This document shows positions 13,205 through 28,311 of a stretch of DNA of 64,000 bases, in pieces. The notes under the pieces are model-generated. The model was not told where the DNA came from and did no database searches. It worked only from the letters and a program-made list of their open reading frames with translations. A program made the position numbers and the translations under genes. Origin of the DNA: Clostridia bacterium (GTDB taxonomy: Bacteria; Bacillota; Clostridia; Lachnospirales; Anaerotignaceae); assembly GCA_022651385.1 (NCBI GenBank), contig JALCQR010000002.1, forward strand, positions 186,001 through 250,000, given 5' to 3'. Within the stretch, counting starts at the first letter, position 1; each line of letters starts with the position of its first letter.

Positions 13205-13476
13205 ACAAAAAAACCGCCTCAGAAATATTCTGAGACGGGATAATCCGCGGTACCACTCAAATTGCTTAAAAGCCTCTTAAATGCACATGTCGACTATGCA
13301 CTCCCAATTAATAACGAGTAGGGAAAATCCCGTCAGCTGCTACTTAGTCTTACGACTTTTCGTTCTGCCCTCCGAAGTCCATTCACATAACATCAGCTGC
13401 TGCCTCACACCACCCGGCAACTCTCTGAAAACATCCGAAATGCTACTCATCTTCATTTACGGTTTAAAAAATATTT
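13205..13476 (-). ncRNA. T-box leader with tryptophan specifier
   Basis: On the minus strand the leader shows the T-box core GAGTGGTACCGCGG (within 13244-13263), an AGAGAG element and GTGGTG in Stem I, and a specifier loop reading GTGAA-TGG-ACTTC; the TGG (13381-13379) is a tryptophan codon. The terminator is the stem CCGtCTCAGAA/TTCTGAGgCGG (13214-13238) followed by seven T. Uncharged tRNA-Trp would favour the antiterminator and let transcription enter the importer genes. The folding was done by eye. Confidence 0.9.
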
Positions 13477-13710: not shown

Positions 13711-13758
13711 ACCTAACATAATATCAAAATGAAGTATTTATTTAAGGGGGAAATAAAT

Positions 13759-15006
13759 ATGATCAGAGAAACAATGGAAATGTTAAGCCATTATGATCAT
13801 GAAGTTGGAGATGCAATGCTTAAAGAGCTTGAGCGTCAAAACAGAAATCTTGAACTTATAGCATCTGAAAATATAGTTTCAGAACCTGTAATGATGGCCA
13901 TGGGCAGTGTACTTACAAATAAATACGCTGAAGGCTATCCAGGAAAGCGTTATTATGGCGGCTGTGAATATGTGGACATTGTGGAGTCCATAGCAATAGA
14001 AAGAGCAAAAAAACTTTTTGGCTGTGAGTACGCAAACGTACAGCCTCATTCTGGAGCACAGGCCAATATGGCAGTATTTTACGCAATACTTAATCCAGGA
14101 GACACTGTAATGGGAATGAGCCTTGCCTGCGGCGGACACCTTACCCACGGAAGTCCTGTAAACATGTCCGGAAAATATTTTAATTCTGTGCCTTACGGAG
14201 TAAATGACGATGGATTTATTGACTATGACGAAGTAAGAAGAATTGCACTTGAAAACAAGCCGAAACTTATTGTGGCAGGAGCTTCAGCTTACGCAAGGGA
14301 AATAGACTTTAAGAAATTCAGAGAAATAGCTGATGAATGCGGAGCATATCTTATGGTTGATATGGCACACATAGCAGGCCTTGTAGCAGCAGGACTTCAT
14401 CAAAGCCCAATACCTTATGCCGATGTTGTTACTTCCACAACTCATAAAACATTAAGAGGACCGAGAGGCGGCCTTATACTTTCAAGCAAAGAAATGGAAG
14501 ATAAATTCAATTTCAATAAAGCAATATTCCCGGGAATACAGGGCGGACCTCTTATGCACGTTATAGCAGGAAAAGCTGTATGTTTCGGAGAAGCTCTCAA
14601 ACCTGAGTTTAAGACATATCAGGAGCAGGTTGTTAAAAATGCAAAAGCACTTGCAGCCGCTCTTATATCCCACGGATTTAAGCTTCTTACAGGCGGCACA
14701 GACAATCACCTTATGCTTGTAGACCTTACAAATATGCCTGTAACAGGAAAAGAACTTCAAAACAGATGTGATGAGGTATATATCACGCTTAACAAAAACG
14801 CTATACCAAATGACCCGCGCAGTCCTTTTGTTACAAGCGGCGTAAGAATTGGAACACCTGCCGTTACAACAAGAGGCCTTGTTGAAAAAGATATGGACAA
14901 GATTGCTGAGCTTATATATATGGCAGCAACGGACATCGACTCAAAAGCCGTGTATATTCGTTCGGAAGTTACAAAAATATGTGACAAATATCCGATATAT
15001 AAATAA
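13759..15006 (+). CDS. glyA: Serine hydroxymethyltransferase
   Basis: A 415-residue PLP enzyme interconverting serine + tetrahydrofolate and glycine + 5,10-methylene-tetrahydrofolate in the cytoplasm. [32 protein letters not shown] and [15 protein letters not shown] are diagnostic; Lys230 in the last motif forms the Schiff base with PLP. The start chosen is ATG 13759, eight bases after AAGGGGG; an in-frame ATG at 13729 lacks a ribosome site. It is monocistronic with two likely promoters and a terminator. Length is normal for the family. Confidence 0.97.
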
Positions 15007-23914: not shown

Positions 23915-23950
23915 TAAAAATAACCAAAAATCTATCGGAGGTGTTTTTAT

Positions 23951-25135
23951 ATGAACAACAATAAATTGGGGTTTGCAACTACAGGGATACATGCCGGGGA
24001 GGCAAAAGATGAATATGGCGCATTGGTTCCGCCAATATACCAGACTTCAACATTCTATTTTGACTCTACATACGACGCAGCAAGGGCATGTGATGATTTT
24101 GCAAAGAGTTTTGCTTACAGCCGAATCACAAATCCAACTGTAGATTGCTTTGAAAAAAAGCTTGCGGCTCTTGAACACGGCAAAGGCGCCGTTGCATACG
24201 CATCCGGAATGGGTGCAATTACAGGTATACTTTTTATGGTTTTAAGCTCCGGTGACCATGCTTTATTCTGCAAGGCAAAGTATTCGGGCACAGAGGATAT
24301 AACTACCGATTTCTTCCCGCGTTTCGGCATACAGTCAGATACATTTAACCCTACAGATCTTGACGCTCTTGAAGCGGCTATACGCCCAAACACAAAGCTT
24401 ATATATCTTGAAACGCCAGCTAATCCTACAATGGTAATGACCGATATTGAAGAAGTTGTAAAAATAGCTAAGCGTCACGGCGTAATGGTAGGCGTAGACA
24501 ATACATTTGCTTCACCTTACAACACAAATCCTCTTGATTACGGTGCAGACTTTGTTATACAAAGTGTAACAAAATACATAGGCGGACACGGTGATATTCT
24601 CGGCGGCGCAGTTATCTCAAACAATGAAGAAATACTAAGAAGCTGCCGACTCGGAACGTTAATGCACTTTGGTGCGGTAATGGCTCCTTTTACAGCTTTT
24701 CTTGCAATCCGCGGTATCAAATCTCTTGCTGTCAGAATGAAACAGCATAATGAAAATGCACTTAAAATAGCTGAATACCTTGAGTCTTCTGATAAAATTG
24801 AATCCGTACGTTATCCTTTCCTTAAGTCTAATCCGCAATATGAGCTTGCTAAAAAGCAGATGAAAGGCGGCGGCGGAATGATTACGTTTGACGTTGCAGG
24901 CGGACTTGAAGCAGGCCAAAAATTTATGAACAATCTTAAACTTTGCAAAATAGCCGTAAGTCTCGGCGATACTGAAACTCTTGTTGAGCAGGCAGCCGCA
25001 ATGACTCATACCATGATTCCTAAAGAAAAACGTGAAGCAGCCGGCATTACAGACGGTATGATACGTATGTCGGTAGGTCTCGAGGACGCAGATGATTTAA
25101 TTAACGATATAAAACAGGCTCTTGGCGACAAGTAA
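23951..25135 (+). CDS. Methionine gamma-lyase / trans-sulfuration family PLP enzyme
   Basis: A 394-residue fold-type I PLP enzyme. FAYSRITNPT holds the Tyr-Arg pair that binds the cofactor phosphate from the neighbouring subunit; SVTKYIGGHGD holds the Schiff-base Lys; the C-terminal half (AAMTHTMIPKEKREAAGITDG, written here in part as THTMIPKEKREAAG) closely resembles methionine gamma-lyases, which yield methanethiol, 2-oxobutyrate and ammonia. However, the Cys that marks true methionine gamma-lyases (YGCT) is Gly here (YSGT), so homocysteine, cystathionine or another substrate is possible. GGAGGTG ribosome site. Probably regulated by the adjacent LysR protein. Confidence 0.88.
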   Translation: MNNNKLGFATTGIHAGEAKDEYGALVPPIYQTSTFYFDSTYDAARACDDFAKSFAYSRITNPTVDCFEKKLAALEHGKGAVAYASGMGAITGILFMVLSSGDHALFCKAKYSGTEDITTDFFPRFGIQSDTFNPTDLDALEAAIRPNTKLIYLETPANPTMVMTDIEEVVKIAKRHGVMVGVDNTFASPYNTNPLDYGADFVIQSVTKYIGGHGDILGGAVISNNEEILRSCRLGTLMHFGAVMAPFTAFLAIRGIKSLAVRMKQHNENALKIAEYLESSDKIESVRYPFLKSNPQYELAKKQMKGGGGMITFDVAGGLEAGQKFMNNLKLCKIAVSLGDTETLVEQAAAMTHTMIPKEKREAAGITDGMIRMSVGLEDADDLINDIKQALGDK

Positions 25136-25268: not shown

Positions 25269-26288
25269 TTAAATACCGGCATCTGCTTCAGAAAACTTTT
25301 CAAAAACTATCTTTACTCTTCCTCCGCATACCATTTTAGTATTTGAGTCTTCCTTATCCATATCATATTCGCCAACATAAAACTCTTTATTTTCGTCAAA
25401 TAATTTGTAAGCCCTTTTTACAGCCATAAACTCAGCGTTTCCGCCTCCCACAGTGCCGACAGCACCTTTTGTTCTATCTTCAAAAACAACCATCATTGCA
25501 CCTTTTTCAGCAGGTGATGAACCCTCTTTTTCGGCAACCGTCAAAAGTATATAGTTTGTTTCATCGTACTTAAAAAGAGAAGCATCAAGTATATTTTTAC
25601 GCTGTGTATTCTTAACCTGTATCATCTGCGCCGCAATGCTTACGGCAATTTCAGCCGGCGTTTTTGCGCCTATCTCAAGGCCTATAGGAGAATTTATTCT
25701 TGAGATATCTTCTCCCGAAAATCCACTGTTTTTTAAAAGTCCGAAACTATGCACCACTTTTTTTCTGCTGCCTATCATCCCTACATATGCGGCAGGCAGC
25801 TTAAGTATATTTTCTATACATGCCTGATCATAGCTATGGCCTCTCGTAAGCACAGCAAAATATGCATCCTCGGCAAAATTTTGTTTATCAAACACGCTTT
25901 CAAAATCACAGCAGACTCTTTTCTCTGCATCTTCAAAACGCTCTTTTGTCACAAATTCTTCTCTGTCATCTATAACCGTAACCGAAAACCCGCACATAGC
26001 ACATATCTTGCAAAGCTCACGGGCAACATGACCACCGCCGAAAATATATAATTTGGGGTGGCTTGAAAAATATTTGAAAAATACAGTGCTGCTTTTTATT
26101 TTACAAATGTCTGTGCTTTTTACATTTTCACAGCCGTTCCAGAAGTCCTGCCCGGCATCCCCGAAAATTTCCGTCTTTCCTCCTGCTGAAATCATTCGGC
26201 TGCCCTGATACACACCGCTTATCACCACTGCCGACAGACAATGACCGCGGTTTTCCACATTTTCATATACCTTTTTGTTTATATCCAA
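25269..26288 (-). CDS. xdhC: XdhC-family molybdenum-enzyme maturation factor
   Basis: A 339-residue protein with the Rossmann motif IFGGGHVARELCKICAMCGF (about residues 83-102), DDREEF and GMIGSRKK as in XdhC/CoxI proteins, which insert sulfurated molybdenum cofactor into xanthine dehydrogenase-type enzymes. In this isolate form it combines the N-terminal XdhC-CoxI and C-terminal Rossmann parts in the order Rossmann first, then a CGGRVKIVFEKF tail. The start is TTG 26288, supported by AGGGAGAG six bases before it. It follows a pseudogene and selD, so it belongs to a selenium/molybdenum cluster; no molybdenum hydroxylase is present in the window. Confidence 0.85.
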   Translation of the reverse strand: MDINKKVYENVENRGHCLSAVVISGVYQGSRMISAGGKTEIFGDAGQDFWNGCENVKSTDICKIKSSTVFFKYFSSHPKLYIFGGGHVARELCKICAMCGFSVTVIDDREEFVTKERFEDAEKRVCCDFESVFDKQNFAEDAYFAVLTRGHSYDQACIENILKLPAAYVGMIGSRKKVVHSFGLLKNSGFSGEDISRINSPIGLEIGAKTPAEIAVSIAAQMIQVKNTQRKNILDASLFKYDETNYILLTVAEKEGSSPAEKGAMMVVFEDRTKGAVGTVGGGNAEFMAVKRAYKLFDENKEFYVGEYDMDKEDSNTKMVCGGRVKIVFEKFSEADAGI

Positions 26289-26290
26289 TA

Positions 26291-26522
26291 TTATCTCTCC
26301 CTAAGGTTTGCTCCTATAAAACTAATATCAGAAAAAGCCGATGAAATATTTAAAAAATCAGTTTTTGCCGTTAATAAAATATTTACATCTTTTTCAGTAT
26401 TAAAACATGAAAAACTAAATCTAACAGCGCCTGTTTTTTCAGTCCCCAATTTGCCTTAATTACAGGCAGCGGGCATGTAAGCCCTTTTGCGTCTATTTTT
26501 TTATATACTTTACATTTCTCAC
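26291..26522 (-). pseudogene. Deletion fusion: 5' part of a yedF/TusA-like gene joined to the 3' end of a nifS-like cysteine desulfurase
   Basis: On the minus strand, directly after selD, the reading frame gives KKIDAKGLTCPLPVIKA, the TusA/YedF signature GLxCPxP. After about 25 codons it runs, in another frame, into GTEKTGAVRFSFSCFNTEKD and on to a TAA at 26291, which matches the C-terminus of aminotransferase-V cysteine desulfurases. Everything between is missing. In addition, the likely GTG start (26522, overlapping selD's TGA) is out of frame with the TusA part by one base at a run of seven A. Neither product can be made. Confidence 0.8.
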
Positions 26523-27538
26523 TTTACATATATTTTTTTATCTTTTTTAGAAGTAATCTTTCCTATTATTCCGCACGGAAGGCCAAGTTTTTCAATTTCA
26601 GCAAGTGCTTTTTTAGCTGATTCTTCAGACATTGAAATCAAAAATCCGCCTGATGTCTGAGGGTCAAAAAGCACTTCCTGCATACCGAAATTTACGTTTT
26701 TAAGTTCTACATCTTTTTCTACATGATTGCGGTTTTTTTGTCCTGCTCCCGTAATATAAAAGTCATCCGCATACTGAACAGCATTTTCTATAATTGGAAT
26801 TTTATCTGTATATATCTCAGCACTGAATTTGTCTCCAAGCATTTCGCAAAGATGAACAAGCAGTCCAAAACCTGTTACGTCGGTGCAGGCATGTACATCA
26901 TATTTATGCAAAATATCGGCCGCATATTTATTTAAAAAAGTCATGCTTTTTACTGCTTCATCATAAGACTTTTTATCGGCTTTGTTCATTCTTGCGGCTG
27001 TGCATATTATGCCTGTGCCAAGAGGTTTTGTAAGTATAATAACATCTCCTTCGGCACACTCCGAGTTTTTAAGCACTTTATCCACTTCTATAAGCCCTGT
27101 AGCGGAAAGCCCGTATTTTATACCGTCATCACAAATAGAATGTCCTCCGGCCAAAACGCCTCCGGCTTCTATTACCTTGTCGTTTCCTCCCTGCAGTATT
27201 TTACCCAATACATTAAGGTCACCGTCTTCCGGAAAACATACGATATTTAAAGCCGTTTTCACTTCTCCGCCCATAGCATATATGTCGCTTAAGGCACTTG
27301 CCGCAGCTATCTGTCCGAAAATATACGGGTCCTCCACCATAGGCGGGAAAAAATCAAGAGTCTGAACAAAAGCAATTTTGTCGTTTATTTTGTAAACAGC
27401 CGCATCTTCATTATTTTCAAAACCGGAAATAAGATTTTCATCTCTTCTTCTTTCCAACATGCCAAGTATCTTGCTTAAAGCACCTGCTCCCAATTTTGCT
27501 GTACATCCACCGTTTTTGCAAAAAAGTTTTTCTTCCAT
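26519..27538 (-). CDS. selD: Selenide, water dikinase
   Basis: About 339 residues; makes selenophosphate from selenide and ATP for selenoproteins, selenouridine or selenium-containing molybdenum enzymes. [11 protein letters not shown] contains the catalytic Cys (not selenocysteine) and Lys, but the second Cys of the usual GCGCK motif is Ala. [39 protein letters not shown] and [11 protein letters not shown] are diagnostic. ATG 27538 is preferred because GGGGA stands nine bases before it; ATG 27547 overlaps the ModE-like stop codon and is also possible. Its former downstream partner genes are a deletion remnant. Confidence 0.92.
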
Positions 27539-27543
27539 ATTCT

Positions 27544-27894
27544 TCATTCCCCATTAAAATATTTATTGAATATCTCTGTATTTTTTCCCTCGGCTTCAGA
27601 ACAAAACTTCCTGTAATTTTCAAGAACATTCCGCCCTGCATCTGTCAAAAAAGCACCACCATTTTTTCCACCGCGGTTTCTTTCAAGAAGTCTTACTCCC
27701 AGCACATCTTCGCATTCATTAAGTATTCTCCACGCTTTGCTGTAGGCAAGTTCCATTTCCGCAGCCGCAGCCGAAAGAGTTCCGTATTGTTCTGTAAGTT
27801 CAAGAAGCATTGCTATTCCGGGGCCAAATGCCTTTTTTCCGTTTTTATATAACCTCATACAGTTTTTAAATGAAAGTTTGCATTTTTCAATCAT
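27544..27894 (-). CDS. ModE-like winged-helix regulator (DNA-binding domain only)
   Basis: A 116-residue protein resembling the N-terminal domain of Mod[21 protein letters not shown], then [15 protein letters not shown] and [19 protein letters not shown], the lysR-like helix-turn-helix plus wing. It lacks the C-terminal molybdate-binding domains, which is common in clostridial versions. It starts the operon with selD (stop overlaps a selD start candidate). It would regulate molybdate transport or molybdoenzyme genes; a scrap of modA lies 250 bases upstream. Confidence 0.85.
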
Positions 27895-28069: not shown

Positions 28070-28147
28070 GTAAAAAATATCTATTCAGAAACAATATAGC
28101 ATCATTTTTTATACATATATCGGCACGAAAAGGCGGCATACACAACT

Positions 28148-28279
28148 CCACAGTCCCAGGTTTTTGTATACTGTCTGAGCATAAGTTCCGGTAGGCACAT
28201 CCTCATTGCCAACGGCAACCATTTTTACTTTATCGGTTGCAGTATCCTCGAAAGATTTGATATCAATGTCGCTGGTAGT
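28148..28279 (-). pseudogene. Fragment of a modA-like molybdate-binding protein gene
   Basis: The minus strand reads SDIDIKSFEDTATDKVKMVA and VGNEDVPTGTYAQTVYKNLG followed by LW, a good match to the segment of molybdate ABC transporter binding proteins that lines the ligand site (FEDLAxDxVKxIAxGNPxxVPAGxYA type). The similarity ends after the Trp codon at 28150-28148 and no start codon or N-terminal half is found; the 5' side runs into the cdaR terminator. It is a relic of a mod operon next to a ModE-like gene. Confidence 0.75.
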
Positions 28280-28311
28280 TTTATATAAAACGGATTATCC
28301 ATGAACTTTAA

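Follow-up and report, generated by a model that had tools for sequence, protein, structure and literature searches.

The window, a stretch of 64,000 nucleotides from a Clostridia bacterium of the Anaerotignaceae, carries on its minus strand between 25269 and 28294 three adjacent open genes, for a ModE-like regulator, SelD, and XdhC, together with remnants of modA, yedF, and a nifS-like gene (Table 1). SelD makes selenophosphate. Known or proposed roles of the other families are molybdate binding for uptake (ModA), molybdate-responsive regulation (ModE), the handling of reduced selenium (YedF and the NifS-like lyase), and help in maturing the cofactor of a molybdenum hydroxylase (XdhC, with YqeB and YqeC). 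Only 230 bases separate the end of selD at 26519 from the start of xdhC at 26288, and these hold two coding remains. The codon-position composition of selD, xdhC, and modE is the same as that of the neighbor genes. A motif seen by eye at the end of the nifS remnant, AGGGAG (26297-26302), is likely to be the ribosome site for xdhC. Promoter-like sites between 25000 and 28400 numbered 10 as compared with 10.7 expected, and no promoter is claimed. The sole Rfam match in the window is a T-box leader at 13228-13468 on the minus strand (101.8 bits).

Table 1. Genes and gene remnants of the minus-strand locus, in the order in which they are read
Feature	Position	Strand	Evidence and remarks
modA remnant, from the interior of the molybdate-binding protein	28112..28294	-	61-codon open stretch; rest of the gene missing
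Possible later modA piece (DCGVVYA), other frame	28132..28161	-	4.1 bits only, profile 191-200; weak
modE-like regulator of 116 aa with a ModE DNA-binding domain, open	27544..27894	-	TIGR00637, E 3.4e-16, below the model's own cut-off
selD, 342 aa, open; residue 84 is Ser in place of an invariant Asn	26519..27547	-	TIGR00476, 371 bits, above cut-off
yedF remnant, first codons with TusA motif, without a usual in-frame start	26452..26523	-	NCBIfam, Pfam, relatives' profile, tblastn
nifS-like (TIGR01977 / EF2568 type) C-terminal remnant, other frame, TAA 26291-26293	26291..26449	-	NCBIfam, relatives' profile, tblastn
xdhC, 339 aa, open; Rossmann domain ahead of CoxI domain	25269..26288	-	XdhC_C, E 3.6e-42; XdhC_CoxI, E 2.9e-13

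The minus-strand frame that runs from stop to stop over 26386-26523 reads KVYKKIDAKGLTCPLPVIKA, a yedF/TusA motif, and matches positions 1-23 of 70 in Pfam TusA (E 2.1e-4; 21.5 bits, below the cut-off of 28.6 bits) and positions 1-22 of 194 in NCBIfam YedF (E 0.0068, far below cut-off). A second frame reads LGTEKTGAVRFSFSCFNTEKD and ends at the TAA at 26291. Its top NCBIfam match is TIGR01977 (346-372 of 376, E 0.0011), it also matches the selenocysteine lyase SclA (346-376 of 378, E 0.047), and these E-values are modest because the piece is short; a Pfam search of the same piece gave no match. Locus-specific profiles were made from 49 YedF and 42 NifS proteins of the relatives' loci, near-duplicates being kept, and were run on the six frames of the window. 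The yedF piece was the top match to the YedF profile, with 22.3 bits as compared with 4.0 for the next, and the nifS piece scored 26.3 bits over positions 349-377 of the 384 in the NifS profile, second in the window to a serine hydroxymethyltransferase at 13717-15003 that matches in mid-profile (31.4 bits) and ahead of a third match at 23924-25132 (18.7 bits). When the region was shuffled 2000 times with dinucleotides preserved, no score exceeded 5.8 bits for yedF or 3.6 bits for nifS, and tblastn with the proteins of the relative L088 (see below) recovered both pieces there, yedF with E 1e-4 and nifS with E 0.006.

By eye, the junction of the two pieces appears to lie near 26450-26454. In the frame of the yedF motif, no ATG, GTG, or TTG occurs after the preceding stop and ahead of the motif, which indicates that the start has been lost or the frame broken. 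With most of the coding sequence gone and frames that do not join, yedF and nifS have the character of a pseudogene pair. The preliminary description of this DNA, in which the beginning of a yedF/TusA-like gene is joined out of frame to a nifS-like end that closes at TAA 26291, is thus borne out. The further frameshift that it placed in a run of seven A near the start is one possible form of the break. It had allowed that a sequencing error might hide an intact gene, and this did not hold: with the bulk of yedF and of nifS missing, correction of an error could restore neither.

A second scar lies upstream of modE. The top one of four NCBIfam matches to the piece is modA (E 7.8e-4, positions 84-129 of 217, below cut-off), and the match to Pfam SBP_bac_11 is likewise below cut-off (E 0.0027). 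The piece is the top match in the window for a profile of ModA from four relatives (28.2 bits; next 8.7), and tblastn gave E 6.5e-5. Just beyond this piece, a DCGVVYA match in a different frame weakly suggests that modA may have lost another short segment. In the relative L090, modA, modB, and an ABC ATPase gene share one cluster with selD and nifS.

The genes around selD were called by phmmer at 45 loci from other genomes, some of them on contigs that end early. These loci contain yedF in 42 cases, nifS in 37, and both in 36; the succession selD, yedF, nifS on a single strand occurs in 30 of the 45, and xdhC comes after nifS in 4. In the SelD tree, the nearest relative is L002 (support 0.55) and then L004 (support 0.94 for all three). 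The sequence of L089, which with L002 is nearest by the tree, stops within the nifS gene, and the nearest relative that is intact and fully readable is L088, the stretch around L004 in a genome of the same family (G004). Its order is modE-selD-yedF-yqeB-PF00994 gene-nifS (TIGR01977)-DUF3343 (PF11823)-yqeC-xdhC. The PF00994 gene, of the molybdopterin-binding Moco type, matches PF00994 and TIGR00177 and does not match MoeA_N, by which its identification as moeA was ruled out. L088 resembles the host locus in having modE-selD-yedF first and xdhC downstream on the same strand, with SelD 64% identical, but differs in that every gene is intact and that its genome has a MoCoBD_2 hydroxylase. The order yedF-nifS between selD and xdhC, which had been predicted from the host sequence, is therefore found in relatives, 30 of the 45 loci having the genes in order and L088 having xdhC downstream as well. 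Two of the 45 loci, L043 and L048, lack both yedF and nifS; the sequence of L043 stops just after selD, and in L048, where the contig stretch stops early, a DUF3343 gene adjoins selD. In L068 (5989-9463, corresponding to the site at G042:C3:114782-115795), frame changes interrupt selD, yedF, and the Moco-type gene alike, and the breaking of several genes together suggests sequencing error, decay being also possible.

Given this order in the relatives, the fusion is explained, as had been proposed, by one deletion that began early in yedF and ended late in nifS. By subtraction, the corresponding points in the two genes lie about 3.4 kb apart in L088 and about 1.6 kb apart in L065, in which yedF is followed by nifS. 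A single deletion would suffice, and the arrangements of the relatives point to a size of about 1.6 to 3.4 kb. Because yqeB and the PF00994 gene both sit between yedF and nifS in L088, they were probably lost in the same event. The DUF3343 gene and yqeC, which lie between nifS and xdhC in L088, are absent from the host locus. Scraps of these genes were not detected in the window: the best scores of the DUF3343 and YqeB profiles in six frames were only 6.5 and 5.6 bits, tblastn with yqeC gave E 0.5 or worse, and the yqeB and PF00994 proteins of L088 had no tblastn match at E 1. The fusion thus stands as first described, but the damage is wider than was recognized, with a modA scrap upstream and the probable loss of yqeB and the PF00994 gene. 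The short fused arrangement, whose conservation in relatives had been named beforehand as an argument against a deletion scar, was not seen in any relative examined, all of which belong to other genera.

The host genome (G000) comprises 19 contigs and has a completeness of 99.88%. Searched at E 0.001, it gave no match to TusA, YqeB, SelA, SelU, MoCoBD_2, MoeA_N, or TIGR04348, the last of which we take to be the selenoneine glycosyltransferase SenB; the survey of the genome for further selenium-utilization genes that had been called for thus yielded none of this set. As positive controls, the first six models each matched in some control genomes, and TIGR04348 matched in 14 of 14, in none above cut-off. 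MoCoBD_2 (PF20256) marks molybdenum hydroxylases in general. Among 58 genomes of the family, SelD (at E 1e-40) was present in 16 and MoCoBD_2 in 24, of which 9 are without SelD. All 15 of the other SelD genomes carry MoCoBD_2, so SelD accompanies a molybdenum hydroxylase in this family, and the host is the only one of the 16 without it. SelA had no match in any of the 16; matches in 3 of the 58 genomes, short, partial, and in genomes without SelD, were tentatively read as other pyridoxal phosphate (PLP) enzymes; one of them is above cut-off (24.4 as compared with 22.8 bits). The absence of MoeA_N is weak evidence on Moco because the Moco-type gene of L088 itself does not match this model. Of the features of a selenium-dependent molybdenum hydroxylase (SDMH) cluster, the host therefore has selD grouped with yedF, a nifS-like gene, and xdhC, with yedF and nifS as fragments only; YqeB was not found in its genome nor YqeC in the window (best E 0.5), and the genome has no MoCoBD_2 match to represent the hydroxylase. 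With SelD present and SelA, SelU, and YqeB not found in the genome, the host has an orphan SelD.

SelD was compared with 57 relatives drawn from 59 SelD sequences, L003 (on the same contig as L036) and the frame-broken L068 being left out. Of the 76 columns with an invariance of at least 95% in the relatives, the host protein departs from the consensus at 5. Within its clade of 44, no other member has more than 2 changes, and L002 and L004, with branch lengths similar to that of the host protein, have 1 and 0, respectively. Outside the clade, L008 and L011 equal the 5 changes of the host and four relatives exceed them. General acceleration of SelD was not seen in the tree, whose root lies on a single long branch and which is a weak guide on this point. 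Residue 84 is Ser in the host and Asn in all 57 relatives (N84S). By numbering counted by hand, it aligns with Asn87 of Escherichia coli SelD (structure 3u0o), a residue given as essential for catalysis, after a crystal-structure paper, in the accessible text of PMC4210487. The host protein retains Cys15, Lys18, and Asp at 48, 65, 88, and 223, so that of the sequence elements expected of a competent SelD (Cys/Sec-x-x-Lys, metal-binding Asp, and the essential Asn) the Asn is replaced. With its changes at otherwise invariant sites, SelD is probably impaired and probably no longer serves selenium use. XdhC was compared with 10 relatives of 290-420 aa that have the Rossmann domain first, and ModE with 16 relatives, among which L036 and L093 are identical, as are L041 and L091; neither XdhC (1 of 41 invariant sites changed) nor ModE (2 of 17) has an excess of changes.

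Taken together, the locus is very probably the relic of a lost SDMH ("Se-cofactor") cluster. This interpretation follows from the match of each piece to the end of its family at which it would be expected, with scores far above those of shuffled sequences, the intact order kept by relatives, the second scar in modA at the same locus, the failure to find TusA, YqeB, SelA, SelU, MoCoBD_2, and MoeA_N in the genome, the presence of MoCoBD_2 in every other SelD genome of the family, and the changes in SelD, N84S included, at more near-invariant columns than in any other member of its clade. In the sequence of events that we infer, a single deletion would have fused early yedF to late nifS, selection on the remaining genes would have lapsed with the loss of the hydroxylase, and SelD would then have gathered changes at otherwise invariant sites, the catalytic Asn among them. 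Against decay, selD, xdhC, and modE are uninterrupted and of ordinary codon-position composition, XdhC and ModE have no excess of changes, SelD keeps most of its active-site residues, and some relatives outside its clade have as many changes (L008, L011) or more (four others). In addition, PF20256 is general to molybdenum hydroxylases, 9 of the 24 genomes with it lack SelD, and MoeA_N is a poor marker of Moco.

The same observations could be explained if the fusion, though a scar, left modE, selD, and xdhC functional in a selenium (or sulfur) pathway that is reduced or unknown, SelD being an orphan whose user is undiscovered. The three adjacent open genes of ordinary composition, the retained active-site residues of SelD, and the unremarkable XdhC and ModE agree with this, and orphan SelD genomes are distributed over several phyla, for which a new trait has been proposed in the available text of PMC5029168. 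We nevertheless consider it unlikely: the Asn that Ser replaces is the one called essential, a hydroxylase domain for XdhC to serve was not found in the genome, and neither were SelA, SelU, and YqeB. It is more speculative, and improbable, that ModE, SelD, and XdhC persist as a novel unit of three genes in a cell without a molybdenum hydroxylase, the altered SelD carrying out some other ATP-dependent reaction and the deletion being a step toward re-purposing. An assembly or sequencing artefact, for which the 19 contigs of the genome and the error-like frame breaks in selD, yedF, and the Moco gene of L068 (G042) might be cited, is very improbable in view of two separate scars within one locus and the failure to find the missing genes elsewhere in a genome of this completeness. 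A programmed frameshift over the run of seven A was ruled out, since the pieces are not connected in any frame and a usual start is lacking in all of them, as was a structured RNA, the fusion region being without an Rfam match at gathering score. It is accordingly hardly credible that the 230 bases have a function of their own, whether as an RNA or as a small fusion gene whose reading involves a frameshift, and the ribosome site that the nifS tail probably supplies to xdhC (by eye) speaks for it only against pieces that share no single frame and a motif into which no usual start leads.

Among known systems, the locus EF_2563-EF_2570 of Enterococcus faecalis is an orphan-SelD/SDMH locus (Haft and Self 2008, PMC2276186). 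As far as the accessible part of that paper describes it, it is like the host locus in having selD beside a YedF gene (EF_2566), a cysteine desulfurase/selenocysteine lyase of the EF_2568 type, and hydroxylase maturation genes, and in lacking a selenocysteine or selenouridine system; it differs in that the hydroxylase and YqeB (EF_2563) are present, whereas in the host genome neither was found and yedF and nifS are scraps. At least 26 orphan SelD genomes have been reported (Peng et al. 2016, PMC5029168; also PMC5322559), and the accessible portions of both papers leave a pseudogene, a non-selenium gene, or a new trait as possibilities. Those genomes, as described there, resemble the host in having SelD without selenocysteine, selenouridine, or YqeB genes (PMC5029168), and in the host the neighboring scars and the changed catalytic residue point to decay. 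No paper on the host locus or on a yedF-nifS fusion scar was found, judged by titles and abstract openings. Orphan selD has been read as a hint of an undiscovered selenium trait; the host locus, in one genome, favors a known trait that is being lost. Other orphan selD genes might be checked for remains of yedF, nifS, or mod genes beside them and for the residue that corresponds to E. coli Asn87.

Two further features were observed among the relatives. In L008, the codon for the active-site Cys of SelD is TGA (GGUASK), as in selenocysteine-containing SelD. In the XdhC proteins of L032 and L061, the CoxI domain precedes the Rossmann domain by motif, the reverse of the order in the host protein.
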